Shown here: positions 8,308 through 43,756 of the stretch, piece by piece
Numbering within the stretch: position 1 is the first letter of the stretch
Layout of the letters: the number at the start of each line of letters is the position of its first letter
Source of the DNA: an uncultured Clostridia bacterium
GTDB taxonomy: Bacteria; Bacillota; Clostridia; Peptostreptococcales; Anaerovoracaceae
DNA length: 52,825 bases
Reading direction: 5' to 3'
Assembly: GCA_944386095.1 (NCBI GenBank)
Contig: CALWZU010000079.1
Location: 1 to 52,825 of the forward strand
Position numbers and translations under genes: made by a program
The notes under the pieces: model-generated
Databases searched by the model: none
What the model was told of the DNA's origin: nothing
The model's input: the letters and a program-made list of their open reading frames with translations, nothing else

Positions 8308-9027
8308 TTATTTTTGTTTCGGGTTTGCTCCTGCTTCCTTCTGTTTGAATTCCCGGAGCTGTTCCTCGTCCACTGCGATCTTTTCCTGAATGGCTTGTTG
8401 AAGCATCATGTCTTTGACCTTCATCAGACGAGTCTGATTACCCCTCTCGTTTTCATCAAGCTTCATTTTGATATACTTGATGGTTTCCTCAAGCTGCGGA
8501 ATCATAACGTATTCCAGCGCGTTTACCCTTCTTCTGGTCTTTTCGATTTCCTCTGCCAGAAGGCTGGCTTCCTTTTCCATGGCGGCCAGCTTCAGCATGG
8601 TGGGAAATACCTCTGACAGACGGGCGATAGCGCCGTCCAGCTCGCCGGAAGTAGACGCGAAGCCGTAAGGATAGATGTTGGAGGTATCGCTGGATTCGGT
8701 TTTAAAATCGAATACCGGCACGTTGACACTCATAACATTTTTTACCCCTACTTCGATGGCTACGCCCTGCTTGGGATACATCAGGGCTTCTTCCAGCATC
8801 TGAGAGGACATCACCGCACTGGCGATGGTAAAGTTGCCGTAGACCTCGTTTAAGAGCTTTTCCACTTCTTCCCGCAGGGCCTTGTTTTGCCTGGCCAGCT
8901 CCAGGAACTGCTTCATCAGCTCATCCCGCTTGTCTTTCATGAGCTTGTGCCCACGTGTGGCAACCTTTAAACGTTTTTTCAGAGAGGTCAGCACCATTCT
9001 GGTCGGATTTACATTTAACCGAGCCAT
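8308..9027 (-). CDS. ntpD: V-type ATPase subunit D
   Basis: This 239-residue coiled-coil protein forms the central rotor shaft of V/A-type ATPases. It has the conserved N-terminus ([16 protein letters not shown]) and the C-terminal helix with [16 protein letters not shown], both diagnostic. It is slightly longer than usual because of a charged C-terminal tail. It is the last gene of the V-ATPase operon, 20 bp after subunit B, and is followed by a terminator. Confidence 0.95.
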
Positions 9028-9047: not shown

Positions 9048-10436
9048 TTAGTCAAAGGAAACCTTTTCTTTCGGCAGATATTTATCCAGATATTCGTCAC
9101 GAACACGCTTCAGTTCGCTTCTGGGCATGATGGTCAGAAGATCCCAGCCGATGTTCAGCGTTTCTTCGATGGTTCTGTTGGTTTCATAGCCCTGAGAAAC
9201 ATATACCTTTTCAAAAGCGTCCGCGAATTTCGCATACAGCTTATCGGTTTCGGACAGAGCCGCTTCACCCAGAATCGCCATCAGCTCTTTACATTCCTTA
9301 CCTCTGGAATATACGGCAAACAGCTGGTTCATGTTGTCGGCATGGTCTTCTCTGGTCTTTCCTTTACCGGTACCTTTATCCTTCAGACGGGACAGGGAAG
9401 GCAGTACGTCGATAGGCGGCGTGATGCCTTTTCTATCCAGCTCTCTGGAAAGGATGATCTGGCCTTCCGTGATATATCCGGTCAGGTCCGGGATCGGGTG
9501 GGTTTTGTCGTCTTCCGGCATGGTCAGGATCGGGATCATGGTAATGGATCCTTCAAAGCCCCGTTTTCTTCCGGCTCTTTCATACATCTGCGCAAGGTCG
9601 GTATACAGATAACCGGGGTAACCACGTCTGCCGGGGACCTCTTTACGGGCGGCGGAAACCTCACGGAGAGATTCGGCGTAGTTGGTGATATCCGTCAGGA
9701 TAACCAGTACGTGCATGCCCTTGTCGAAAGCCAGATATTCAGCGGCGGTCAGTGCCATACGGGGAGTGGCGATACGTTCGATGGCCGGGTCGTCAGCCAG
9801 ATTGGTGAACAGTACCGTTCTGTCGATGGCGCCTGTCTTTCTGAAGTCGGAAATGAAGAATTCCGCTTCTTCATATGTGATACCGATAGCGGCAAATACT
9901 ACGGCGAAATTACTTTCCGTGCCCAATACCTTAGCCTGACGGGCGATCTGGGCGGCCAGTTCGGCGTGAGGCATACCGGAGCCGGAGAAGATAGGCAGCT
10001 TCTGACCTCTTACCAGTGTATTCAGGCCGTCGATAGCGGAAATACCGGTCTGAATGAATTCCGCCGGGTAGTCTCTGGCGGCCGGGTTCATGGGCAGGCC
10101 GTTAATATCAAGCCTTTTTTCCGGGATGATTTCCGGGCCGCCGTCTTTGGGACGGCCAAGTCCGTCGAATACACGGCCCAGCATGTCGGTGGATACCGCC
10201 AGCTCGATGCCGTGGCCCAGGAAACGGACCTTACTTTCTGCCAGGTTGATGCCGGCGGAGCTTTCAAACAGCTGTACCAGCGCATTGCCGCCGTTGAGCT
10301 CCAGGACTCTGCACCGTCTCATCTCACCGTTTGGCAGCTCGATTTCGCCCATTTCATCGTAACCTACATTTTCAACGTTTTTTACCAGCATAAGCGGGCC
10401 GGCTACTTCGGCAATTGTCTTATATTCCTTAATCAT
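9048..10436 (-). CDS. ntpB: V-type ATPase subunit B (non-catalytic)
   Basis: This 462-residue stator nucleotide-site subunit has no Walker A motif, as expected. It shows family segments such as [14 protein letters not shown]-like ([15 protein letters not shown]), [14 protein letters not shown] and [20 protein letters not shown]. It alternates with subunit A in the A3B3 head. The gene overlaps subunit A by 8 bp. Confidence 0.97.
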
Positions 10437-12219
10437 CCAAATCGCCTCCCTTATTGACTAATGCTTCAACGCTGTCGGTCAGTTCCGCCATGATTCTGTC
10501 AAACGCCTCCTGCGTCTTATCTTCTTCTACATACTTGAATCTGCCGATGGCCTCTCTGACAGGGAGTGCGCTGAGTTTTTCAAAATCCGCGCCCTTTTCC
10601 AGAGCGTCCTTGCTCTTATTGTAATATCCCAAAATCAGCTTCAGCATCATGTACTGCTTAGCCAGGGACGTATAGGTATCCACTTCATGGAAGGAGTTCT
10701 GGTGCAGGTAGTCTTCTCTGATGGACTTACTTGCTTCCAGCTTCAGTCTGTCAGGATAGGACAGAGCGTCTACGCCGACCAGCTGTACGATTTCGTTCAG
10801 TTCCGCTTCTTCCTGCAAGAGGGTCATCATCTGTTCTCTGAGCTGAGGGAATTCCGGATTTACTTCGGAAGCAAACCAGGCGTTCAGTCTGTCAACATAC
10901 AGAGAGTAGCTGTTCAGCCAGTTGATGGCCGGGAAGTGACGGGCATAAGCCAGCGCAGAGTCCAAGCTCCAGAATACCTTTACGATACGCATGGTAGCCT
11001 GGGATACAGGCTCGGAAAGGTCTCCGCCCGGAGGAGATACGGCGCCGATAGCGGAAAGAGCGCCTTCGCGGCCTTCCGTACCAAGGCTGATAACTCTTCC
11101 GGCTCTTTCATAGAACTGCGCCAGACGGGACGCCAGATAAGCGGGATAGCCTTCTTCACCGGGCATTTCTTCCAGACGTCCGGACATTTCTCTTAACGCC
11201 TCGGCCCAGCGGGAAGTGGAGTCAGCCATCAGGGCTACGGAATAACCCATGTCTCTGAAATATTCTGCGATTGTGATACCTGTATAAATGGAAGCCTCTC
11301 TAGCCGCTACCGGCATGTCGGAGGTGTTGGCGATCAGCACGGTACGTTTCATCAGGGGCTCGCCGGATTTGGGGTCTTTCAGTTCCGGGAATTCCATCAG
11401 TACGTCTGTCATCTCGTTGCCGCGTTCGCCGCAGCCGATATACACTACGATGTCAGCATCCGCCCACTTGGCCAGCTGGTGCTGGATAACGGTTTTGCCG
11501 CTTCCGAAGGGGCCGGGTACAGCCGCAACGCCGCCCTTGGCGATGGGGAACAGTGTGTCTACAACACGCTGACCGGTTACCAGAGGCATCTGGGGTACCA
11601 ATTTTTCTTTATAGGGACGGCCTCTTCTTACAGGCCATTTCTGCATCATCTGTACGTTGACCGTTTCGCCTTTTTCATTTTCCACAACGCAAACGGTATC
11701 TTCAACGGTAAAGCTGCCCGCTTCGATCTTCTTAACGGTACCGCTTACTCCGTAAGGAACCATGATCTTATGCAGTACGATAACGGTTTCCTGTACGGTG
11801 CCGATTACATCTCCCGCCTGAACCTTATCGCCCGCCTTAACGGTAGGAACAAATTCCCATTTCTTTTCTCTGTTCAGAGCCGGCGCCTGTACACCTCTTG
11901 TAATGTTGGAACCGTATCTTTTCAGAAGCTCTTCCAGAGGTCTCTGAATACCGTCGTAAATGGTCTCGATCAATCCGGGGCCCAGCTCTACGGACAGAGG
12001 AACGCCTGTGGTTACAACCGGCGCTCCGGGCTTAACGCCCGCCGTTTCCTCATATACCTGAATAGAAGCCGCACCATCACGCATTTCGATGATTTCGCCG
12101 ATCAGACCCTGTTCGCCTACACGAACTACGTCGAACATATCCGCCTCTTGCATGCCTTCTGCAACGACCAGAGGTCCGGCTACCTTTACTATCTTACCTT
12201 GGCTCACTTTTTCAGTCAC
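10429..12219 (-). CDS. ntpA: V-type ATPase catalytic subunit A
   Basis: This 596-residue catalytic subunit has the Walker A loop GPFGSGKT at residues 236-243, the catalytic region GCGERGNEM, and the long insertion (about residues 115-190) that distinguishes V/A-type A subunits from F-type beta. It hydrolyses or synthesises ATP at the A/B interface. It lies 52 bp after subunit F, a larger gap than elsewhere in the operon. Confidence 0.98.
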
Positions 12220-12271: not shown

Positions 12272-12592
12272 TTAGTCATTGCCAAACAGAATATCAGCGC
12301 CGACAGCCCGCTCAACCGATTTCTTGACATTGGCAATGCCGATTCCGTAGCTGCCATCCATACCGGGAATCGGAATGATGGCCGGTATACGCATATCCTT
12401 GTATTCGTTGATGCTATCACCCATGTCCTTGCAAAGGCCTTCGGTGATGTAAATGATCGCATAATCTTCCTTTGCGATCCTGTGAAGCGTCTTAACCGCC
12501 TCATCACTGTCCAGGCAAGGAAAAACCTGTAATCCAACAGCTTTGAAGCCCAGTACGCTTTCTCGGTCTCCGATCACGCCTATTTTATACAT
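12272..12592 (-). CDS. ntpF: V-type ATPase subunit F
   Basis: This 106-residue protein has the subunit F pattern: MYKIGVIGDRESVLGFKAVG at the start and EDYAIIYITEGL in the middle. It binds the D shaft in the central stalk. The gene overlaps subunit C by 8 bp. Confidence 0.93.
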   Translation of the reverse strand: MYKIGVIGDRESVLGFKAVGLQVFPCLDSDEAVKTLHRIAKEDYAIIYITEGLCKDMGDSINEYKDMRIPAIIPIPGMDGSYGIGIANVKKSVERAVGADILFGND

Positions 12593-13580
12593 ACGTTTCC
12601 CTTAACCTTTCCTTGATGGTATCCCTGGGAAGGTCTGCCAAAAGACCCGCCATGATGATCCGGGCAGTCTTAATCTCGTTTTCCTTTGCGATCAGATAGG
12701 CTGCCATGGGCTCCATACCGAAGGTCACATGCTTTGCCCCTCTGGCAAACTGGATGATCATGTTGTCGCACAGTTTTTCCAGCATGGTAAATCTGCCGGC
12801 ATCCTTGACCATGGCGCCGCCTTCTGCCAGGGCCGTATTCAGCCCGAAAGGCAGGAGCTTTTCCGCAAACTGTTCATAGGCTTCATCATAGCCTGAAACA
12901 AACAGCTTCTCAGGCACATTCCCTCCGGGAATGAAAACCTTATTGAAAAAGTCCCAGGTTTTTCCCATTTCTCTCATTCTTACAAATGTTTTTAAATTGA
13001 TGGTATCGATCAGCAGTCCCACGTACCTGCGAAGGAAAGCGTTATTGGCGGCGGAGGCCAACTTTGCCATCTCCGTGTAGCAGGCCTTGTCAAAGATCAG
13101 ATCGATGATCTGGGGATCGTTTGTTCTGGAAAACACATCGATCACTTCCAGCATCGCGTTTTTCATATCCGTCGTCATGCTCAGGAAATTTCTTTCCCGA
13201 ACCATAACCGCCATTTTGTTCACTTCGATGGATCCGTTGCTCATCAGAAGAGGCATTGGATCGATCCCTAAAAATTCAGCCTTCATCAGGGTTTTCAGAT
13301 TATGATAATCATAGGGATACTGGAACAGCCGGAAAGGCTCTTTATCCGGAGCGATGGAGAGAACAAATTCGTAAGTCTTCTTCGTTTCCTCCGTAAGAAG
13401 CTCCTCAAAATTCTCTTCCCGGACCGGCTCCCCCCCATAGCCATAATCTGAATCATACAGTACTTTCAAAGCGTCCGCAGGTGTTTTGCTGTCTACCATT
13501 TTTTCCACTTTTTCGCGGGTCAGCAGGTTTTTTTCGACGCTGCGTACCCGCGCAGTGGCGAATACATAGTCTTTTCCCAA
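12585..13580 (-). CDS. ntpC: V-type ATPase subunit C
   Basis: This mostly helical protein of 331 residues joins the central shaft to the K ring (subunit C of bacterial V-ATPases, d in eukaryotes). Recognisable segments include YDYHNLKTLMKAEF and LKTFVRMREMGK. The start is a TTG with AGGAGG 7 bases upstream. It follows subunit E after a gap of 42 bp. Confidence 0.9.
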   Translation of the reverse strand: MGKDYVFATARVRSVEKNLLTREKVEKMVDSKTPADALKVLYDSDYGYGGEPVREENFEELLTEETKKTYEFVLSIAPDKEPFRLFQYPYDYHNLKTLMKAEFLGIDPMPLLMSNGSIEVNKMAVMVRERNFLSMTTDMKNAMLEVIDVFSRTNDPQIIDLIFDKACYTEMAKLASAANNAFLRRYVGLLIDTINLKTFVRMREMGKTWDFFNKVFIPGGNVPEKLFVSGYDEAYEQFAEKLLPFGLNTALAEGGAMVKDAGRFTMLEKLCDNMIIQFARGAKHVTFGMEPMAAYLIAKENEIKTARIIMAGLLADLPRDTIKERLRETYV

Positions 13581-13622: not shown

Positions 13623-14219
13623 TTATCGGAACAACGCCCCTACGACTTCCGAAGTAGCGTCTTCCCTAACAGCGCCCACCATTGTCTCTAACGTTGAGTT
13701 GATCTCCACGGATCCGCTTCTCAGCACAAAGCCGCCTGATGCGCCTATGGTATCCTCGCTCAGGGTCACCTGCGCGCCTTTTTTCCCATCGGCGTTCACC
13801 TTTTCGACGATCTCTTTTCCGATGGCGTCCTTATCTTTTTTGTTCAGATACAGGATTCCGCCGTCGATGGAAGCCTCAGAAGAAACTTCCTTGATTTTCT
13901 TTACGAGAAAATCGACATATTCGCCTTTTTTCATCGTTTCCAGCTTTTCCAGGGCCTTGTCAAAGCTTTTGGCAATGACGGACTGCTTGGCCGCAAGTCT
14001 CATTTTTCTGGCCTCCAGGTCTGCCACGGAAAGCTTGCGGTTTTTCAGCTCCGCAGCGTCTTCCTGGGCCTGGCGCTGCATTTTTTCCTTCAGCGCCGCG
14101 GCCTCCTGATTTGCCTTTTCCACTACGGCCTTTGCTTCATCCTTGGCTCTGTCTGTGATGATCTTGGCGTTTTCGGTCGACTCGCTTAAAATCTTGGCCG
14201 TTATATTGTCTATGCTCAT
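13623..14219 (-). CDS. ntpE: V-type ATPase subunit E
   Basis: This 198-residue peripheral stalk subunit has an N-terminal coiled coil rich in Ala, Lys and Glu (residues 10-80), followed by a globular domain with GGFVLRSGSVEINSTLETM, typical of E subunits. It pairs with the G/H subunit of the operon to form the stator. Confidence 0.92.
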   Translation of the reverse strand: MSIDNITAKILSESTENAKIITDRAKDEAKAVVEKANQEAAALKEKMQRQAQEDAAELKNRKLSVADLEARKMRLAAKQSVIAKSFDKALEKLETMKKGEYVDFLVKKIKEVSSEASIDGGILYLNKKDKDAIGKEIVEKVNADGKKGAQVTLSEDTIGASGGFVLRSGSVEINSTLETMVGAVREDATSEVVGALFR

Positions 14220-14248: not shown

Positions 14249-16739
<2,491 letters not shown>

Positions 16740-16740
16740 T

Positions 16741-17052
16741 TTACTTCACGATCCTTCCCACAATGATTGAGACAGCGCTTTCCAAATTCTTTTCTGCACC
16801 ATTCAGAATTTCGGAACACTCTTTCTCTGCTTTTTGAATCACCTCGTCGTAGGAAACCTGCGCTTCCGACTCGGCTTTGCTCAGCGTAGCCTTATACGCT
16901 TCGTCCGCAGCCTGTTTTGCCTCTTCCAAAATACGGGCAGCCTCTTTTTCCGCATCAGCGGCAATCTGTTTGACCTCGGCATTGCTTTGTTTTCTCATTT
17001 CCTCAGCTTTGCTTTCGACTTCCTTGATCATTTTGATTTGCTCGATTGCCAC
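16741..17052 (-). CDS. V-type ATPase subunit G/H (peripheral stalk)
   Basis: This small, fully helical protein of about 103 residues is rich in Lys, Glu and Ala (for example AEKEAARILEEAKQAADEAY), as expected for the stalk partner of subunit E. I prefer the GTG at 17050-17052, since GGGAGG lies 7 bases upstream of it. An ATG at 17065-17067 is in frame but would place that ribosome site inside the gene. Confidence 0.88.
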   Translation of the reverse strand: MAIEQIKMIKEVESKAEEMRKQSNAEVKQIAADAEKEAARILEEAKQAADEAYKATLSKAESEAQVSYDEVIQKAEKECSEILNGAEKNLESAVSIIVGRIVK

Positions 17053-17219
17053 AGCATCACCTCCCATCCATTTGAAATCGTTTTGCGTTTCTGTCTACTC
17101 TTTTATGAGACAAAAACAAGGCCGCGTTTTTGCTGGATTTGTGTTCGATACACGATTCCCCCTTCCTTTGGAGCGACACGGCCAACTGTGCCTGCCCTTT
17201 CATATTCCTCCTTTTACCT

Positions 17220-17618
17220 TTACACACTCTCTTTCTTACCAATTCTATTGACAAAAGATGCGATCGAGAATACAAAATTGAATGCAAAAATACCGAAAAT
17301 CGTCCCCCATTCGTTCACGCCGTCAATCAGCACCGCCAGCAGGAACACGATGATATAGCACAGAAGGCGGAGCCAGTAGCGGCTGGTTGCGTATGTTTTC
17401 GCCTGATCGGGTTCCATTTCCGTCACCTTTTCTACGGTTCGAAACAGGATCTCAAAGGAAATGAATCCCGCGGCGGCGCCAAAGGCCACCCCCAGTATAG
17501 CGGGCACCGGCTGATCGAAAAGAATCAGACACAAAAGGCAGGCCACCACCTCCACAAGAAAGCCCAGTAAATAGCCTGTTTTTTTCCACTTGATCAGCGT
17601 GTCTTCTTTCAAGTTCAT
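17220..17618 (-). CDS. AtpI-like membrane protein heading the V-ATPase operon
   Basis: This 132-residue protein has four hydrophobic helices. It is visibly related to the AtpI-like protein of the F-ATPase operon in this window: both have D71, A73-K74, Y76, Y81, L83-R84-L85-L86, Y88 and V91-F92-L93-L94 at the same residue numbers. AtpI proteins of F-ATPases are thought to help assemble the c ring, so this one may do the same for the K ring. The ATG at 17616-17618 sits almost on GGGAGGG; the TTG two codons later is 7 bases from it and could be the real start. It is the first gene after a good predicted promoter. Confidence 0.75.
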   Translation of the reverse strand: MNLKEDTLIKWKKTGYLLGFLVEVVACLLCLILFDQPVPAILGVAFGAAAGFISFEILFRTVEKVTEMEPDQAKTYATSRYWLRLLCYIIVFLLAVLIDGVNEWGTIFGIFAFNFVFSIASFVNRIGKKESV

Positions 17619-17707: not shown

Positions 17708-19897
17708 CTAAATATTTATTACTTTTTTCAATATCCCCAAAATTTGTTTCGATGCGGTTCCATCGCCGTAAGGATTCGTTGCTCTGGCCATGGATTCATA
17801 AGAATCCGGATTGTCAAGAAGTTCACAAGCAATATGGAAAATTTCCTCCTGTTTTACCCCTGCTAATCTCGCTGTACCTGCCAAAATCGCCTCCGGACGC
17901 TCTGTTTCTTTTCGTACCACAAGTACAGGTTTTCCCAGAGCCGGGGCCTCCTCCTGAATGCCGCCGGAATCGGTCAAAATCAGATAGGATCTTGCCATCA
18001 GGTTTGAAAAAGGCTGATATTGCAACGGTTTGATCAGATGCACCCGGTCTATTCCCTCTAATATTTCACCGGCGGTCTTTTGAACGGCCGGATTCAGGTG
18101 AACCGGGTAAACGATCTCTACATCGTCATATTTTTGTGCGATGTCCCGGATGGCGCTGAAGATATTCACCATGTTTTCTCCCAGATTTTCCCTTCTATGG
18201 CAAGTTACGGTAATTACTCTTTTTGTTGAAAAATCAATGTTTTTCAGGGTTTCATCCTCAAATTCATAGGGCATGGAAGTAACTTTCAAAAGCGCATCTA
18301 TTACGGTGTTTCCCGTAATATAGATTGTTTTTTCCGGTATGCCTTCTTTTGTCAGATTGTCCCGATTGGTTTTCGTAGGGGCAAAATGGATATCCGCCAG
18401 GTGTCCTGTCAGGACCCGGTTCATCTCTTCCGGATAAGGGGAATACTTGTCATAGGTGCGCAGCCCCGCCTCCACATGGCCGATCTTTACCTTGTGATAA
18501 AAAGCAGACAGGGACGCAGCGAAAGTGGTCGTCGTATCTCCGTGAACCAGGACCAGATCCGGCTTTTCCGCCTCCATCACCTGATCCAGTCCGCCGATCA
18601 CATTCGATGTGATCATGCTTAAAGACTGGTGAGGCTTCATGATATTCAAATCGTACTTGGGCTTTAACTGGAAAAGCGCCAAAACCTGGTCCAGCATCTC
18701 TCTGTGCTGAGCCGTTACGCATAGGATCGATTCAAAAGCCTCATCTGCTTCCAGCGCCTTCACCACCGGCGCCATTTTGATCGCCTCCGGCCTGGTTCCA
18801 AAAACCGTCATAACCCGTATTTTCCCGGCTTCCTTTGGCTTTGCCCCGCTTACATCCACCGAAATCTCTCCTTCCTTCTTTTTCCCCTCTCCATCCGAGG
18901 GCTTCAGGAACACATAAACCACCGTAGCGGCGGCGATAAACAGAAATACCGTATCCATATAGGCCCCCTGGCTGATCAGGACGGCGCAGATACCCAAAAT
19001 ACCGCTGATGGCGTAAAGAAGCATGACCGTTGTCTTCTGGCTCATGCCTTTGGCCATGATCCGGTGATGCAAATGACCCTTGTCCGCTTCCATAATAGGT
19101 CTTTTATTGGCGGCCCGGCGCACGATGGCAAAGGCCGTGTCAAAAATAGGAAGAGCCAGAGCCAGAAGGGGTACCAGGGTAATAATGACGGCGGAGCTTT
19201 TCAGGGTCCCCAGGGAAATCCCCGCCAGCATGAAGCCCAGGAAAAGCGAACCTCCGTCTCCCATGAAGATCTTGGCCGGATTAAAATTATAGGGCAGAAA
19301 GCCAAGGGCCGCTCCCGCCAGGGCGAGGGTCAGCACGGAAATCATCAGGCTGCCGTTTAGAAAAGCAGAATAAGAAAGGGATAACGAAGCGATAAAGGCC
19401 AGTCCCGCCGCCAGACCGTCCAGGCCGTCGATGAGATTGATGGCGTTGGTGATGCCTACGATCCACACCACCGTCAAAAGATAGCTGATAAAAGGCGAAA
19501 AGAAAATATAAGACTCTCCCCCTCCAAAGGGGTTATTAATATAGGCGATCTGCGTCTCTGTAAAATACAGCACCGACGCGGCCCCGATCTGAAACAGAAG
19601 CTTGACCTTGGCGCTGAGATTGTGCAGATCATCATAAATGCCCACCAGAAAAATAATGGTCGCCCCGGCCAAAAGCCCCAGAATCGGCTTTGTCAGCGGG
19701 ACCGTCACCAAAATGGAAACCACGGCTCCAAGATACATGGCCAGCCCCCCAAACCGGGGGATGGGCCTGGAATGCACCCGCCTTTCATCCTTTGGGATAT
19801 CGATGGCCCCCACCTTATAAGCGAGCCTTATACATACCGGCGTCATGATCCAGGCAACCACAAAAGCGATCAAAAAAGCGAAAATCAAATCCTGCAT
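17708..19897 (-). CDS. Fused undecaprenyl-phosphate GlcNAc-1-phosphate transferase / UDP-GlcNAc 2-epimerase
   Basis: This 729-residue protein joins two enzymes. Residues 1-335 are a polytopic MraY/WecA/TagO-type transferase with [13 protein letters not shown] (151-163), [11 protein letters not shown] (211-221) and the HLHHR motif (275-279). It would attach GlcNAc-1-phosphate to undecaprenyl phosphate. A charged linker (about 333-358) leads to a non-hydrolysing UDP-GlcNAc 2-epimerase (WecB/MnaA), with FGTRPEAIK (366-374), VHGDTTTT (451-458), HVEAGLRT (474-481) and TDSGGIQEE near the end; this makes UDP-ManNAc. Both steps lead to wall teichoic acid or another ManNAc-containing surface polymer. 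There is no stop or frameshift at the joint. The start overlaps the dCMP deaminase gene by 13 bp. Confidence 0.92.
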
Positions 19898-20322
19898 AGC
19901 TCTATTCTTCCTTCGTTGAGTATTTTTTCAGCAAACGCATCGGGATAATCTCCCTTGAATACCACCCTCCTGATCCCCGCATTCACGATCATTTTTGCGC
20001 AGATGGCGCAGGGCTGGCAGGTGCAGTAAAGGGTCGCTCCTTCAATGCTGACGCCGTATTTGGCCGCCTGTATGATGGCGTTTTGTTCAGCGTGGATCGC
20101 CACACAAAGCTCATGCCTTTCTCCCGACCGGATACCCAGCTTCTGCCTCAGGCATCCCGTCACATCGCAGTGCGGCGCTCCTGCGGCCGCCCCGTTATAG
20201 CCAGTGGCGATCATTCTTTTATCCTTTACGATTACCGCTCCCACCTGCCGTCTCAAACAGGTGGATCTTTGACTGACTACCATGGCGATTTCCATAAAAT
20301 ATTCATCCCAGCTGGGTCTCAT
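19885..20322 (-). CDS. comEB: dCMP deaminase (ComEB family)
   Basis: This zinc-dependent cytidine/deoxycytidylate deaminase family protein of 145 residues has the catalytic HAE motif (H77, E79) and the PCxxC zinc motif (104-108). The insert with [10 protein letters not shown] is typical of dCMP deaminases. It converts dCMP to dUMP, feeding thymidylate synthesis. It lies 24 bp downstream of metH and overlaps the next gene by 13 bp. Confidence 0.9.
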
Positions 20323-36872: not shown

Positions 36873-37286
36873 TTAAAACCGTGCGTTTTTTACATTCAAG
36901 CGATTGACCGCCTTCAAGATATCGATCTTGGCCGACTGGACCGCCACGATGGATTGCTGGGACTGATTTTTCAAAATCTCCTCCGCGTTGGCCTTGGAGC
37001 GCAAAGCCCTCTCCACATCGATTTCCTCCGGCCATTCCGCCGCGTCTACATACACCAGAACCTTGCCCGCCACATCGATGTAGCCGCCGGTGACCGCGGC
37101 GATCAGGTATTTCTTCCCAGGCAGCCGGATCCGCATTTCTCCCGTATCCAGCAGCTTCACCTGCCAGGAATGCCCGGCCATATAGCCCTCATAGCCATCA
37201 TAGGTTTTGAGGATGACCATTTCCACATCCCCCTCGTAAAACACCCTTTCCGGTGTAATCACTTCTAATCGGAATGTCTTTGCCAT
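36873..37286 (-). CDS. atpC: ATP synthase F1 subunit epsilon
   Basis: This 137-residue protein has an N-terminal beta-sandwich (FRLEVITPERVFYEGDVEMV) and a C-terminal helical hairpin (EEIDVERALRSKANAEEIL). It is a rotor subunit that can inhibit ATP hydrolysis. It is the last gene of the operon, 8 bp after atpD. Confidence 0.95.
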   Translation of the reverse strand: MAKTFRLEVITPERVFYEGDVEMVILKTYDGYEGYMAGHSWQVKLLDTGEMRIRLPGKKYLIAAVTGGYIDVAGKVLVYVDAAEWPEEIDVERALRSKANAEEILKNQSQQSIVAVQSAKIDILKAVNRLNVKNARF

Positions 37287-37294
37287 AAGACCAC

Positions 37295-38698
<1,404 letters not shown>

Positions 38699-38710
38699 TC
38701 ACTCCTTCCC

Positions 38711-39577
38711 TCAGGATAAGGCGTTCGCGCCGCCGATGATTTCGGTGATTTCCTGGGTTACGGCGCTTTGCCGCGCCAGATTATATGACATGGTCAGCTC
38801 TTCTATGATCTCCTGGGCGTTGTCAGTGGCGTTTTCCATCGCCATCATCCTGGCGGCGTTTTCGCTGACCACGGACTCGGTAATGGCTTTAAATAGCATA
38901 ATTTCAACATATTTCGGCACCAGGTAGTTAAAGACCGCCTCCTCGGAGGGTTCATAGTCCACCAGCTGGACACGCTCCGGAATATCCTCCTTCTTCTTTT
39001 TCGATACAAAGGGCAAAAGGCGCACCACCTCCGGCTCCTGCTTTAAAGAAGATTTGAAAGCCGTGTAAATCAGATTCAGCTCATCCAGCTCTTCCCGGTT
39101 ATACATCTGGATCATGGGATCGCACACCATCTTGGCGTTCAGAAAGGACAGGTTTTCCGGCGGTCCCAGATAAGCGGCGGACATTTCATAATTCTGACTT
39201 TTGAAAAATTCCGCTCCCTTTGAGCCAAAAGCAAAAATAACGGAGTTTTCCTTGTCTTCAATGGATTTCTGGGCCTTTTCGATGACCCTTTCATTGAAAG
39301 CGCCGCACAGCCCCCGGCTGCTGGAAATCACGATAAAGCCCTTCTTTTTGATTTCACGGGTTCCTTCCAAATAGGGGCTTTCGATCTGTACGGTGTTATG
39401 AAAAATTTCTTCGATCGAGTCGGTGACGATCCGGAAATGCCGTCTGGTTTTTTCCAGTCTCACTTTGGAAGTTCTCAGCTTTGCCGAGGAGACCAGGCTC
39501 ATGGCTCTGGTCAGATGCTCGATGCTGCTGATTCCCTCGATCCTCTCTTTTAATTCTTTGGTATCGCCAACCGCCAC
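38711..39577 (-). CDS. atpG: ATP synthase F1 subunit gamma
   Basis: This 288-residue central shaft subunit has an N-terminal coiled coil (TKELKERIEGISSIEHLTRA), the FIVISSSRGLCGAFN segment and the C-terminal YNLARQSAVTQEITEIIGGA, all diagnostic. It lies between atpA and atpD as usual. Confidence 0.97.
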   Translation of the reverse strand: MAVGDTKELKERIEGISSIEHLTRAMSLVSSAKLRTSKVRLEKTRRHFRIVTDSIEEIFHNTVQIESPYLEGTREIKKKGFIVISSSRGLCGAFNERVIEKAQKSIEDKENSVIFAFGSKGAEFFKSQNYEMSAAYLGPPENLSFLNAKMVCDPMIQMYNREELDELNLIYTAFKSSLKQEPEVVRLLPFVSKKKKEDIPERVQLVDYEPSEEAVFNYLVPKYVEIMLFKAITESVVSENAARMMAMENATDNAQEIIEELTMSYNLARQSAVTQEITEIIGGANALS

Positions 39578-39594
39578 GCTCTTTCACCTCCGGC

Positions 39595-41121
39595 TCAGTC
39601 CTCGTTGAATTCACCGCTCTTATAAAGCTGCATGAATTCCGTCAGCGCCGCCGTCAGCTGCGCCTCAGTCTCATCCGTAAGAGCGCCGGTTTCCTTGATG
39701 ACCTCTCCCACCTCCGGATGATGGATGTCCATAAATTCGTACAGCTGTTCCTCAAAATGCCGGATATCCTTTACATCGATCTCCATGAGAAAACGGTTGA
39801 TGGCCGCGAAAATAATCATCACCTGGTGCTCCACGCGAATGGGGTGATACTGAGGCTGCTTCAGCACCGCCATCAGCCTTTCGCCCTGCATCAAGCGCTG
39901 CAGGGTGTCATTGTCCAGTTCGGATCCAAACTGGGAAAAGGCTGCCAGCTCTCTATACTGAGCCAGCTCCAGACGGATTTTTCCGGATACCTTTTTCATG
40001 GCCTTGGTCTGAGCGTTGCCCCCTACACGGGATACGGAAATACCCGAGTTGATGGCAGGTCTCTGTCCGGAGTTGAAAAGCCTTGTTTCCAAAAATATCT
40101 GACCATCGGTGATGGAAATAACATTTGTGGGAATATAGGCGGAAACGTCGCCCCTTTGGGTTTCGATAATCGGCAGGGCCGTGATGGAGCCGCCGCCGAT
40201 TTCCTGGCTGATTCTGGCGGAACGCTCCAGAAGCCGGCTATGCAGATAAAAAACATCCCCCGGATAAGCTTCCCGTCCCGGCGGCCTTCTTAACAGCAGG
40301 GAAATTTCACGATATGCCACCGCATGCTTGGAAAGATCATCGTAAATGATCAGAACGTCTTTTCCCTGATACATGAATTCTTCCGCCATGGCGCAGCCCG
40401 CATAAGGAGCGATATACTGCATGGGCGTCACATCGCTTGCCGTAGCGGAAACGATGATGGTATAATCCATGGCGCCTCTGTCCTTCAGGGTCTGAACCAG
40501 CTGGGCGACCGTGGATTTTTTCTGGCCGATAGCCACATAAATGCAAATGACGTTTTCTTCCTTTTGATTCAGGATGGTATCGATGGCAATGGCGGTTTTA
40601 CCCGTTTGCCTATCGCCGATAATCAGCTCCCTTTGCCCTCTTCCGATGGGGACCATGGTATCGATAGCCTTGATACCCGTCTGCAGCGGCTGGGATACGG
40701 ATTTTCTGTATAAAACCCCCGGTGCGGGATTTTCCACAGGGCGGTGCTTTTGCGCCTGGATCGGACCGCTGCCGTCGATAGGCTGCCCCAGGGCATTGAC
40801 CACTCTGCCGATCAGTCCCTTTCCCACGGGAACCTCTACTACCTGCCCGGTGGGCTTAACGATATCCCCTTCCTTGATGTGCCTGTCAGGGCCCAGAAGA
40901 ATGACGCCCACGTTGTCCTCCTCCAGGTTCATGGCCATTCCGTAAACCCCTCCGGGAAACTCCAGAAGCTCGCCCTCCATGCAGTTTTCCAGTCCGAATA
41001 CTCTGGCTACGCCGTCGCCCACCTGGATGACGCTGCCAAATTCCGATATTTCAACAGCGCTGTCATAGCGCTTGATCTGCTCCATAATGACGGCGCTGAT
41101 CTCTTCGGGTCTGAGATCCAT
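39595..41121 (-). CDS. atpA: ATP synthase F1 subunit alpha
   Basis: This 508-residue nucleotide-binding subunit has Walker A GDRQTGKT at 169-176 and the family segments [20 protein letters not shown] and [18 protein letters not shown]. The gap to atpH (71 bp) holds two adjacent hairpins. GGAGGG lies about 10 bases before the ATG. Confidence 0.98.
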
Positions 41122-41149
41122 CTGTATTCATCCCTCCAATTCAAATGTT

Positions 41150-41191
41150 CCCGCGGCAGCTGCGCCGCGGGCAATCCTCCTCCGGAGGATT
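41150..41191 (-). repeat. Two adjacent hairpins between atpH and atpA
   Basis: 41150-41171 is a perfect 8-bp stem (CCCGCGGC/GCCGCGGG, 6-nt loop), and 41173-41191 a perfect 8-bp stem (AATCCTCC/GGAGGATT, 3-nt loop). They occupy the longest gap within the ATP synthase genes from atpF to atpC. Neither is followed by a T tract, so they are not obvious terminators; mRNA processing or stability is more likely. Confidence 0.6.
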
Positions 41192-41192
41192 A

Positions 41193-41738
41193 CTACAGGG
41201 AAACCTGCTGTATGCTGTCGTGGATGATCTTCAGCCGGTTTCTGACAGAGGCGTCTAAAACCTGATCCTCCACATATACCTTCATGCCGCCGATGATGGC
41301 CGGATCCACCTGGTTGCTCAGCTGGATCTGTTTCCTCATCAGCCGGGAAACCTCTTGTTCGATCTTTTCGATCTGGGCCCTGTCCATGGGAACAGCCGTT
41401 ACCAGAACGCCCTCTCCTATATGATTACCCTCATTGACCATCTTGGCGTACTGCTTGGCAATCCCCGGTAAATACTGGATCCGGCGCTTGTCAAACAGCA
41501 CCATCAGAAACTTCAAAAGCGTATCGGAGATCTTTTCCCTGAACAGCTCGCCCACCAGAGCCTTTTTTTCCTCCTTGCCCACCTTTGGATTTCTCAGCAG
41601 GAAATAAAACCGGCGCTGGGATGTGATCATCTGGGACACAAAAGAGATTTCCTCCTTGATCCGGTCCGTTTCCTCCGTCTGCAAGGTCAGTTCATACAAA
41701 GCCCTGGCATATGTTTCTTCCACGGTGAACTTAGACAT
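41193..41738 (-). CDS. atpH: ATP synthase F1 subunit delta
   Basis: This 181-residue stator subunit has the N-terminal helical bundle (YARALYELTLQTEETD) and the C-terminal pattern IIGGMKVYVEDQVLDASVRNRL, typical of the family. The start overlaps atpF by 8 bp. Confidence 0.93.
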   Translation of the reverse strand: MSKFTVEETYARALYELTLQTEETDRIKEEISFVSQMITSQRRFYFLLRNPKVGKEEKKALVGELFREKISDTLLKFLMVLFDKRRIQYLPGIAKQYAKMVNEGNHIGEGVLVTAVPMDRAQIEKIEQEVSRLMRKQIQLSNQVDPAIIGGMKVYVEDQVLDASVRNRLKIIHDSIQQVSL

Positions 41739-42234
41739 CTGTCTTTCCTACCTCTTTCAGAATCCGATCGATAAACGCCCGCTGTTCCTTTTCGTCCAGC
41801 TCCTTTTCCAGGATCTTTTCCGCCATGAACACAGCCAGGCTCACGATTTCCTCTCTTGCCTCATAAACGGTTTTATTCTTTTCTCTTTCGATTTCCAGCT
41901 CGGCAAGACGCTTCAGCTCATCCGCCTGCCGGTCGGCTTCGTTGATGATTTCCCTGTAGCGGTTATCCGCCTTGGCCTTCGCCGCGCTGATGATGTCTCT
42001 GCTCTCCTTTTGGGCTCCTCTGATCTTCAGCTCGTATTCCCGCTTCAGCTCAAGAGCCTCCTGATTTTTCTGCTGGGCAAAATCCAGAGAAGCGTCGATG
42101 GCATCCTGTCTTTTCTTGACAAAATTATGGATAGGCTGGGCCAGCACTTTGCCCAGCACCACACAGATGATCAGCGTATTGATCAGCTGCATTATGATCG
42201 TCCAGTTAAACTGTACGACACCTGTGACCTCCAA
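41731..42234 (-). CDS. atpF: ATP synthase Fo subunit b
   Basis: This 167-residue protein has one N-terminal membrane helix (IIMQLINTLIICVVLGKVL) followed by a long, highly charged coiled coil. It is the peripheral stalk. The start is TTG at 42232-42234, with AAGGAGG 7 bases upstream. Confidence 0.94.
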   Translation of the reverse strand: MEVTGVVQFNWTIIMQLINTLIICVVLGKVLAQPIHNFVKKRQDAIDASLDFAQQKNQEALELKREYELKIRGAQKESRDIISAAKAKADNRYREIINEADRQADELKRLAELEIEREKNKTVYEAREEIVSLAVFMAEKILEKELDEKEQRAFIDRILKEVGKTDV

Positions 42235-42291
42235 GAAATCGCCTCCTTCCCCCTATGACAAAATCCTTTTCGCATCGGGGCCTCTTATGCT

Positions 42292-42555
42292 TTACAAAAG
42301 GCCCACAAGGGGATTTGCGATAACCAGCATGATCGAAATAATGAAAGCGAAAATACCTGTGGTTTCCGCAAGAGCCGCGCCCACTAAAAGCGTTCTCAGG
42401 ATCGCGCCCTGGGCTTCAGGCTGTCTGGAAATACCCTCAATGGCTTTTCCCGTAGCGCCGCCGATACCGATTCCCATACCGATGGCAGACAGCATTGCTA
42501 ATCCGCCGCCAATTGCCGAGCAACCCAGCACAATCGCTTTTGCTAATAGTTCCAT
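42292..42555 (-). CDS. atpE: ATP synthase Fo subunit c, without the Na+-type glutamine
   Basis: This 87-residue two-helix proteolipid forms the rotor ring. The ion-binding carboxylate is E64 in ALAETTGIF. Aligned by eye with the Na+-binding Ilyobacter tartaricus c subunit, the position of Q32 is isoleucine (I31 in GMGIGIGG), while T65 matches the Ser/Thr ligand. The loss of the Gln argues for H+ coupling, though it does not prove it. The polar loop SRQPEAQG is typical. Confidence 0.96.
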   Translation of the reverse strand: MELLAKAIVLGCSAIGGGLAMLSAIGMGIGIGGATGKAIEGISRQPEAQGAILRTLLVGAALAETTGIFAFIISIMLVIANPLVGLL

Positions 42556-42651
42556 CCTCGTTTCCTCCCTGATAAAATATCAAATGTTTTATTTACTTAA
42601 GAGACTTGGCTCAAAGTAACGCTTTTGTTTCCGGCGGGGCCGGATATCTTC

Positions 42652-43365
42652 CTATTCCTCGGTTTCCGTATTGATCCCCACAAAGGTCATGGTCAGCATG
42701 CAGAACACAAACGCCTGCAGGGCCGGTTCAAACAGGTCAAAGAAAAGATTCAGCGGAATGGGCAGAACCAGATTGAAAAAGGGAACGCCCATGCCCAGCA
42801 TGGAGCTTAGGGCCGCCGTGGCCTGATAACATAAGGTCATGACGATACACCCGCCCAGAATATTTCCAAACAGTCGGAAGGACAGGGAAATAGGCAGGGT
42901 AAGCTCGCTGATCACATTGACCGGCAGCAGGAAAATATAAGGGGAAGACATATGATGAAGATGACCCTTCAGGGTTCTGGCGCGGATGGCCAGGCCCTGG
43001 ATCATGAAAAAGGCGATAATACCCATGGCAAAGGTGGTATTCACATCCGCCGTAGTGGAACGGATCCCCACGATCCCAAGGAAATTACAGCAAAAGGTGA
43101 AAATTAAAAAGCCGACAAAATAAGGCGCCAGATACGCATTTTTTGCCCCTACCGTTCCTTCAATCAGGCCGTAGAGCATTTCCACCCCGGATTCCAAAAG
43201 CGCCTGCACCTTGCCGGGGCGCTCCTTCAGATTCCTGGTCAGCAAAACCGACGCCACGATCAAAACCAGCATCACGATCCAGGTAAAAAATACCGATTCC
43301 GTAATAAAAATCCGATCGCTGATTCTGAAAAATATTCTTGGCCCTAATTCCTCCAAAGAATGCAT
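42652..43365 (-). CDS. atpB: ATP synthase Fo subunit a
   Basis: This protein of 237 residues from the preferred start has about five membrane helices. The essential Arg is at residue 164 in LSFRLFGNILGG. It forms the half-channels next to the c ring. I prefer the ATG at 43363-43365, four bases after the stop of the AtpI-like gene; an upstream in-frame ATG at 43386 would overlap that gene and has no better ribosome site. Confidence 0.94.
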   Translation of the reverse strand: MHSLEELGPRIFFRISDRIFITESVFFTWIVMLVLIVASVLLTRNLKERPGKVQALLESGVEMLYGLIEGTVGAKNAYLAPYFVGFLIFTFCCNFLGIVGIRSTTADVNTTFAMGIIAFFMIQGLAIRARTLKGHLHHMSSPYIFLLPVNVISELTLPISLSFRLFGNILGGCIVMTLCYQATAALSSMLGMGVPFFNLVLPIPLNLFFDLFEPALQAFVFCMLTMTFVGINTETEE

Positions 43366-43369
43366 ACGC

Positions 43370-43756
43370 TCACAACCTTTCCCCATTGATCAGGCCGTCT
43401 GCATAAATGGCGGCCTTGGTCGTGCAAATTCCGGCGAGGCTTCCCAAGGCGGCCGGCAGGCCAAGCCTGAGGCTCAAAAGGAAAACAGCGCCGTATAAAA
43501 GTAATCGAAGGATATAGTTTTTTAATATATATTTTTTCGCTTCGTCTTCCGCCATAGAAAGCGACCGCTCCAAAGCCTTCGCCAGAAAAAAGAAATTGAC
43601 CGCCGAAACGGCATAGCCCAGCAAAAGCCCCGGTAAAAACAGGCTCCGAACGCCTGCGAAAGGAAGAGAACCCAGCCAGAAGACCAGGCCCGCTATCGCG
43701 GCATATTTTATGATCCTGTTTCTGTAGCTTTTGAGATCTTCCATTTTGTGTGACAC
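43370..43756 (-). CDS. atpI: AtpI-like membrane protein heading the F-ATPase operon
   Basis: This 128-residue protein with four hydrophobic helices is of the ATP synthase I family, thought to aid c-ring assembly. It shares D71, A73-K74, Y76, Y81, L83-R84-L85-L86, Y88 and V91-F92-L93-L94 with the AtpI-like protein of the V-ATPase operon, at identical positions. The start may be GTG at 43754-43756 or ATG at 43742-43744; neither has a strong ribosome site. Confidence 0.82.
   Translation of the reverse strand: MSHKMEDLKSYRNRIIKYAAIAGLVFWLGSLPFAGVRSLFLPGLLLGYAVSAVNFFFLAKALERSLSMAEDEAKKYILKNYILRLLLYGAVFLLSLRLGLPAALGSLAGICTTKAAIYADGLINGERL

Follow-up and report, generated by a model that had tools for sequence, protein, structure and literature searches.

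In the stretch of DNA analysed here (the window, 52,825 nt from an uncultured Clostridia bacterium), the V-type ATPase operon is headed by a gene for an AtpI-family (ATP-synt_I) membrane protein, designated atpI' (17220..17618, minus strand). The account proposed for this arrangement, to which a probability of roughly one half is given, is that an F-lineage atpI stood at an F-ATPase locus, that a V operon came to lie behind it, and that its product, AtpI', now serves the K ring of the V-type enzyme.

The atpI' protein and the V-ATPase operon

The product of atpI' (132 aa) matched PF03899 (ATP-synt_I) with 41.0 bits (E 2.6e-10; gathering cut-off 25.1 bits). The same cut-off was passed by the V-linked AtpIs of four relatives (32.7-35.8 bits), and so by 5/5 V-linked proteins. 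Only two PF03899 matches were found in the window genome (94% complete), the V-linked protein and the AtpI of the F-ATPase operon, the latter with 31.0 bits (E 3.4e-7; cut-off 25.1); the profile search of both proteins suggested in a preliminary description of this DNA therefore supported their family assignment. An AlphaFold2 model of the V-linked protein contained helices at residues 3-33, 37-65, 70-97 and 103-127 (mean pLDDT 85.4), which bears out the four helices previously read from its sequence. Comparison of the model with PDB structures returned nothing significant; the structure of an AtpI has yet to be solved.

Across 65 aligned AtpIs, Gly47 and Arg84 were invariant, and Gly43 and Gly109 were present in all V-linked AtpIs and in nearly all others. 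A helix-4 criterion, for which there is no published definition, was derived from our own AtpI sample as Lys, His, Arg, Gln or Asn at column 114. This basic or polar residue is kept by most other AtpIs but is gone in the AtpIs of the multi-c group (Ile) and in 4/5 V-linked AtpIs (Ala or Ser), the window AtpI' having Asn. The AtpR family (PF12966, cut-off 26) gave zero match for the window AtpI' and 14.1 bits for the best V-linked relative, and AtpZ / ATPase_gene1 (PF09527) had 0 matches in the whole window genome; an AtpR or AtpZ identity for atpI' was rejected on these results. By its sequence, atpI' is a true member of the AtpI family. It is like AtpI/UncI of F-type operons in its PF03899 match, four helices, Gly43/Gly47/Arg84/Gly109, place as first gene of the operon and upstream neighbours. 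It differs in preceding a V operon rather than atpB, and the V-linked group differs further in the loss of the helix-4 residue (4/5) and in the absence of helix 1 (4/5), the proteins of G008, G046, G088 and G122 starting at helix 2 and thus having a three-helix form.

AtpI usually lies directly upstream of F-type atpB; atpI' is instead followed by V-type G/H and I, and the V-type operon behind it is complete in the order G/H-I-K-E-C-F-A-B-D (17067 down to 8308, all genes on the minus strand). Pfam matches were obtained for subunits I (14751..16739; PF01496, also NF004428), K (14249..14749; PF00137 in two stretches), E (13623..14219; PF01991), C (12585..13580; PF01992), F (12272..12592; PF01990), A (10429..12219; PF00006, PF16886, PF22919), B (9048..10436; PF00006, PF22919) and D (8308..9027; PF01813). 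The G/H-type stator subunit (16741..17067) was assigned from weak PF16999 / TIGR02926 matches and from its position, which is conserved in relatives. Rotor subunit K is a double hairpin whose best PDB relative is 2bl2, "V-type sodium ATP synthase subunit K" (E 1.2e-38, whole-length alignment), and it keeps the sodium-site motif of E. hirae NtpK (LPGTQG..Y, Gln, Glu); PMC2359735 discusses the Na+ site of E. hirae along with that of I. tartaricus. Given its complete subunit set and the sodium-site motif of K, the window operon can be classed, as far as sequence goes, as a V/A-type Na+-ATPase operon. It is like the E. hirae-type prokaryotic V/A Na+-ATPase (ntp) operon in both respects and differs in having atpI' as its first gene; E. 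hirae-type ntp operons are not known to contain an AtpI gene.

A frame of 48 codons (17057-17202), preceded by a match to a ribosome site (GGAGG), lies between atpI' and G/H and ends at the G/H start, whereas the corresponding gap in relatives is only about 32-94 nt. A promoter and terminator scan returned nothing above chance, and the interval from atpI' to the V genes had no terminator-like site on its coding strand. The gene is probably co-transcribed with the V operon.

AtpI-headed V operons were found in 5 genomes from 4 genera (the window genome G000, G008, G046, G088 and G122) among 350 genomes of the family, which corresponds to 5/52 V loci of the family whose upstream sequence was readable. 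In G008, G046, G088 and G122 the V-linked atpI is directly upstream of G/H-I-K. A profile built from these V-linked AtpIs recovered all five from the 350 genomes at E <= 6.3e-37, and the next match (2.2e-13, the rest being weaker) was an AtpI ahead of an F operon. Small membrane ORFs upstream of the 52 family V loci were screened for a hidden, diverged AtpI, and none was found. A four-helix protein upstream of the V operon in G007 (L033) was considered and rejected, as it failed to match the AtpI profile (E 0.56 when searched alone, with a negative score). The close V operons of G022, G103 and G127 are free of AtpI, as most V operons are.

In the class-wide sample, in which 169/341 genomes have a K subunit, comparison of K and AtpI coordinates returned no further AtpI upstream of a V operon among the K places listed, a search that a very diverged AtpI could escape. 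Among these places K and AtpI were neighbours only in G185 and G293, where AtpI is downstream of the V operon and heads an F operon. L141 (G185, from another family of the class) has a V operon followed directly by an AtpI-headed multi-c F operon. Phylum-wide, none of the best matches of the V-linked profile that were examined was V-linked; these AtpIs were followed by F-type subunit a or lay inside an F operon (L176, L185). AtpI in a V-type operon is unreported in the literature searched, and a gene named "atpI" in the V operon of C. difficile was discarded as a name clash, since it encodes subunit I. With 5 cases in the 350-genome family and none in the class and phylum samples, the earlier remark that V-ATPase operons do not normally include AtpI holds. 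The neighbourhood survey that had been suggested found the gene at the same position in four further genomes, and neither of the outcomes named beforehand as contrary (no profile relation between the two AtpIs, or absence of the gene from V operons of all relatives) was obtained.

Two AtpI lineages in one genome

The F-ATPase operon of the window (a-c-b-delta-alpha-gamma-beta-epsilon; 36873..43386, minus strand; identified by PF00119, PF00137, PF00213, PF00006 and ORFs) sits about 19 kb from the V locus, behind serS, and has its own atpI (43370..43756, minus strand). The preliminary description was correct in placing these two reading frames at the head of complete V-type and F-type operons, and the identical residues that it gave (M68, D71, A73, K74, Y76, Y81, L83-L86, Y88 and V91-L94) were recovered. 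BLASTP aligned the two AtpIs with zero gaps and 24/68 identical residues (35%; E = 2e-10 for the single comparison). In the F-type c subunit (42292-42555), Ile replaces the sodium-ligand Gln32 (Gln/Glu32 in sodium rings), and because of this substitution the V-type enzyme is the more likely of the two to pump sodium in this cell. The closest PDB sequence relatives of this F-type c are sodium c rings, despite the Ile in place of Gln32.

The 35% identity across 68 residues would be in keeping with a recent duplication, in which a duplicate of the F-linked atpI of the same cell was taken up by the V operon, but the phylogenies make such an event highly improbable. V-linked AtpIs formed a single clade (support 98/94 in the full tree and 98/95 with long branches removed), and the window F-linked AtpI was placed within a separate clade of family single-c F-operon AtpIs (100/97, and 99/98 with long branches removed), in agreement with the position of the window F operon in the F-tree. 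Joining the two window AtpIs was rejected by the AU test (p = 0.016), and in-genome duplication of atpI was discarded on this result. Joining the V-linked and single-c AtpIs was also rejected (p = 0.035); a clade of the window AtpI and multi-c AtpIs was not (p = 0.17). The two genes had been called paralogous, which stands insofar as both belong to the AtpI family; it fails for a duplicated pair within the genome, since they belong to two deep lineages. Judged from the alignments and trees, the similarity of the V- and F-linked AtpIs is that of common family membership rather than that of a close paralogous pair.

The nearest neighbours of the V-linked clade were multi-c F-operon AtpIs, with weak support (84/75 and 71/51), and the clade may be closest to the AtpIs of sodium-type multi-c F operons. 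In Na+-type F operons of relatives (L008, L015, L134, L135, L136), a concatenated c of 4-5 hairpins (373-462 aa, e.g. L008:6765-8150, minus strand) adjoins one ordinary c. The ion-site Glu of the concatenated c is present in the first hairpin only, with Gln in the rest, and the protein exceeds in size the A. woodii c1, which has two hairpins.

The chromosomal locus and its occupants

Throughout the order, dCMP deaminase and WecA-MnaA are followed as a rule by atpI and the F-ATPase operon, and this arrangement was also found in phylum relatives. In the window, the dCMP deaminase (19885..20322, minus strand; PF00383) and a WecA-MnaA fusion (glycosyl transferase 4 and UDP-GlcNAc 2-epimerase; 17708..19897, minus strand; PF00953 and PF02350) lie directly upstream of the V-linked atpI and serve by synteny as the two upstream markers of the ancestral F-ATPase locus. 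The fusion is a single 729-aa protein in the window. It was found in six family genomes only, namely the window genome, G015, G016, G072, G114 and G162, which were joined with 100% support in the marker tree (nearest 76% identity). In all of these except the window, the same slot is occupied by atpI and a multi-c-hairpin Na+-type F operon. The MnaA slot contains V operons in G008, G088, G127 and G120 as well, and single-c F operons in G009, G024 and G062; G122 and G046 have the order atpI'-V operon-atpI-F operon (G046 being joined from two contigs). At L021:5462-6723 (G013), a single F operon is preceded by a tandem pair of AtpI genes, with MetH-dCMP deaminase-WecA-MnaA upstream of the pair.

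Synteny and the slot occupants across relatives show a rotary-ATPase site whose occupant has changed, with the V operon in the position expected for an F operon headed by atpI. This ancestral F-ATPase locus under the V operon, overlooked by the preliminary description, explains the presence of atpI there. In the proposed history, the lineage of atpI' would have originated in F-type ATP synthase operons, and the slot dCMP deaminase-WecA-MnaA-atpI would be a former F-ATPase locus. A Na+-type V-ATPase operon would then have arrived directly behind atpI, either replacing the F-ATPase locus or inserting into it, and the F-type structural genes at the slot would have been displaced, presumably in place, or lost, with atpI being retained. 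The present F-ATPase of the cell carries its own atpI, from another lineage.

The AtpI' of the window falls together with V-linked AtpIs whose genomes have no WecA-MnaA fusion, so a single in-place swap in the window's lineage is not the whole history. Moreover, V operons with AtpI were no nearer to the window in the V-operon tree than those lacking it, which suggests that AtpI' was lost several times or that the history includes transfer. From the grouping of the AtpIs, either insertion at an earlier stage followed by losses or a transfer of the atpI'-V block is needed. An unlikely alternative, which concerns the origin of the arrangement only, is that the atpI'-V block was transferred horizontally as a unit into the MnaA locus, the shared slot being a preferred insertion site. 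This would fit the formation of one clade by V-linked AtpIs whose upstream loci nevertheless fall into two subclades. It is opposed by the V-operon tree, in which AtpI-carrying operons are no nearer to the window than AtpI-free operons, by the AtpI lineage being native to F operons of the order, and by the AU test, which did not reject a clade of the window AtpI and multi-c AtpIs.

A possible role in V-type ring assembly

AtpI is presented as a helper of c-ring assembly in passages of PMC10054830 and PMC4453477 that cite Suzuki 2007. According to work cited in PMC8904574, the ring of the Acetobacterium woodii Na+ ATP synthase needs its native AtpI, for which E. coli AtpI is no substitute, and this ring includes the V-type c1 (PMC7911925). 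The A. woodii system is like that of the window in comprising a Na+ rotary ATPase and a ring with a V-type c subunit, and it provides a case in which the native AtpI is required; it differs in being an F-type enzyme with V-type c1 as a minority, whereas the window ring should be all V-type K. Given this precedent and the sodium motif of K, AtpI' probably helps to form the K ring. The retained protein would most likely aid the insertion of the double-hairpin K and ring closure, as AtpI does for c rings, its client having presumably changed. By this analogy, the shared ring-assembly mechanism for both rotary ATPases that had been suggested earlier is plausible. The further claim, that AtpI changed client, is now an assembly factor dedicated to the V-type K ring of a bacterium (in a three-helix form in most cases) and was inherited with the takeover of the locus, is put forward tentatively, at a little below even odds. 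It would be the first prokaryotic V-type ring chaperone in the literature searched.

AtpR of N-ATPases (PF12966) offers a second comparison, being a small three-helix protein of the size seen in the four three-helix V-linked relatives, and it has been proposed as a substitute for UncI (PMC4154653). It differs in that the V-linked AtpIs fail PF12966 and pass PF03899, and the N-ATPase is F-type. Two V-carrying relatives (L126 of G127 and L130 of G052) have an N-ATPase-like F operon that begins with beta-epsilon and continues with a small membrane protein, AtpR (PF12966, 72.9 bits), a and c.

The V-linked atpI is under purifying selection, looser than that on its neighbours, as measured in one pair of relatives (G046 vs G122, dN/dS 0.28, dS 0.65). 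The remaining V-linked pairs had 29-46% identity and intact ORFs, and nearly all were saturated at synonymous sites. Between G046 and G122, the V-linked AtpI had 69% identity, against 92%, 87% and 95% for the F-linked AtpI, I and K, respectively. This faster evolution than that of the operon, together with the loss of helix 1 in 4/5, could reflect a fading constraint.

Both features also count in favour of the main rival explanation, which we regard as somewhat unlikely: atpI' would be a bystander left at the F locus by the former occupant, serving the F-type c ring in trans or slowly decaying, with no role in the V-type ring. Its F-type lineage agrees with this, as do the many V operons without AtpI; most V operons do without it, so AtpI cannot be generally required. 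In G008 (97% complete), the one AtpI found is the V-linked protein and none precedes the F operon, an observation that counts for the K-ring account as well as for the bystander. Against the bystander, atpI' has remained the leading gene of the V operon across four genera, dN/dS was 0.28 in one pair, and the F operon has its own atpI in G000, G046 and G122. An ion-channel role for AtpI' in Mg2+ or Ca2+ uptake near the ATPase would follow the proposal for AtpI/AtpZ of alkaliphilic Bacillus, made for atpZ/atpI of B. pseudofirmus OF4 (Hicks 2003, in the passage of PMC4453477 that cites it). Such a role is quite unlikely here, given that AtpZ is absent from the window genome, that most V-linked AtpIs have no basic or polar helix-4 residue and that four have no helix 1.

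The window offers a natural case of the assembly factor of one rotary ATPase inside the operon of the other type. With such a case one can ask whether AtpI responds to a property that c and K rings share or to one linked with sodium rotors, and whether a chaperone is needed at all for the V-type rings of prokaryotes. Across one family, a single conserved site holds three kinds of rotary ATPase (single-c F-type, multi-c Na+-type F-type and V-type), and such a shared site bears on the exchange of F- and V-type enzymes among bacteria.
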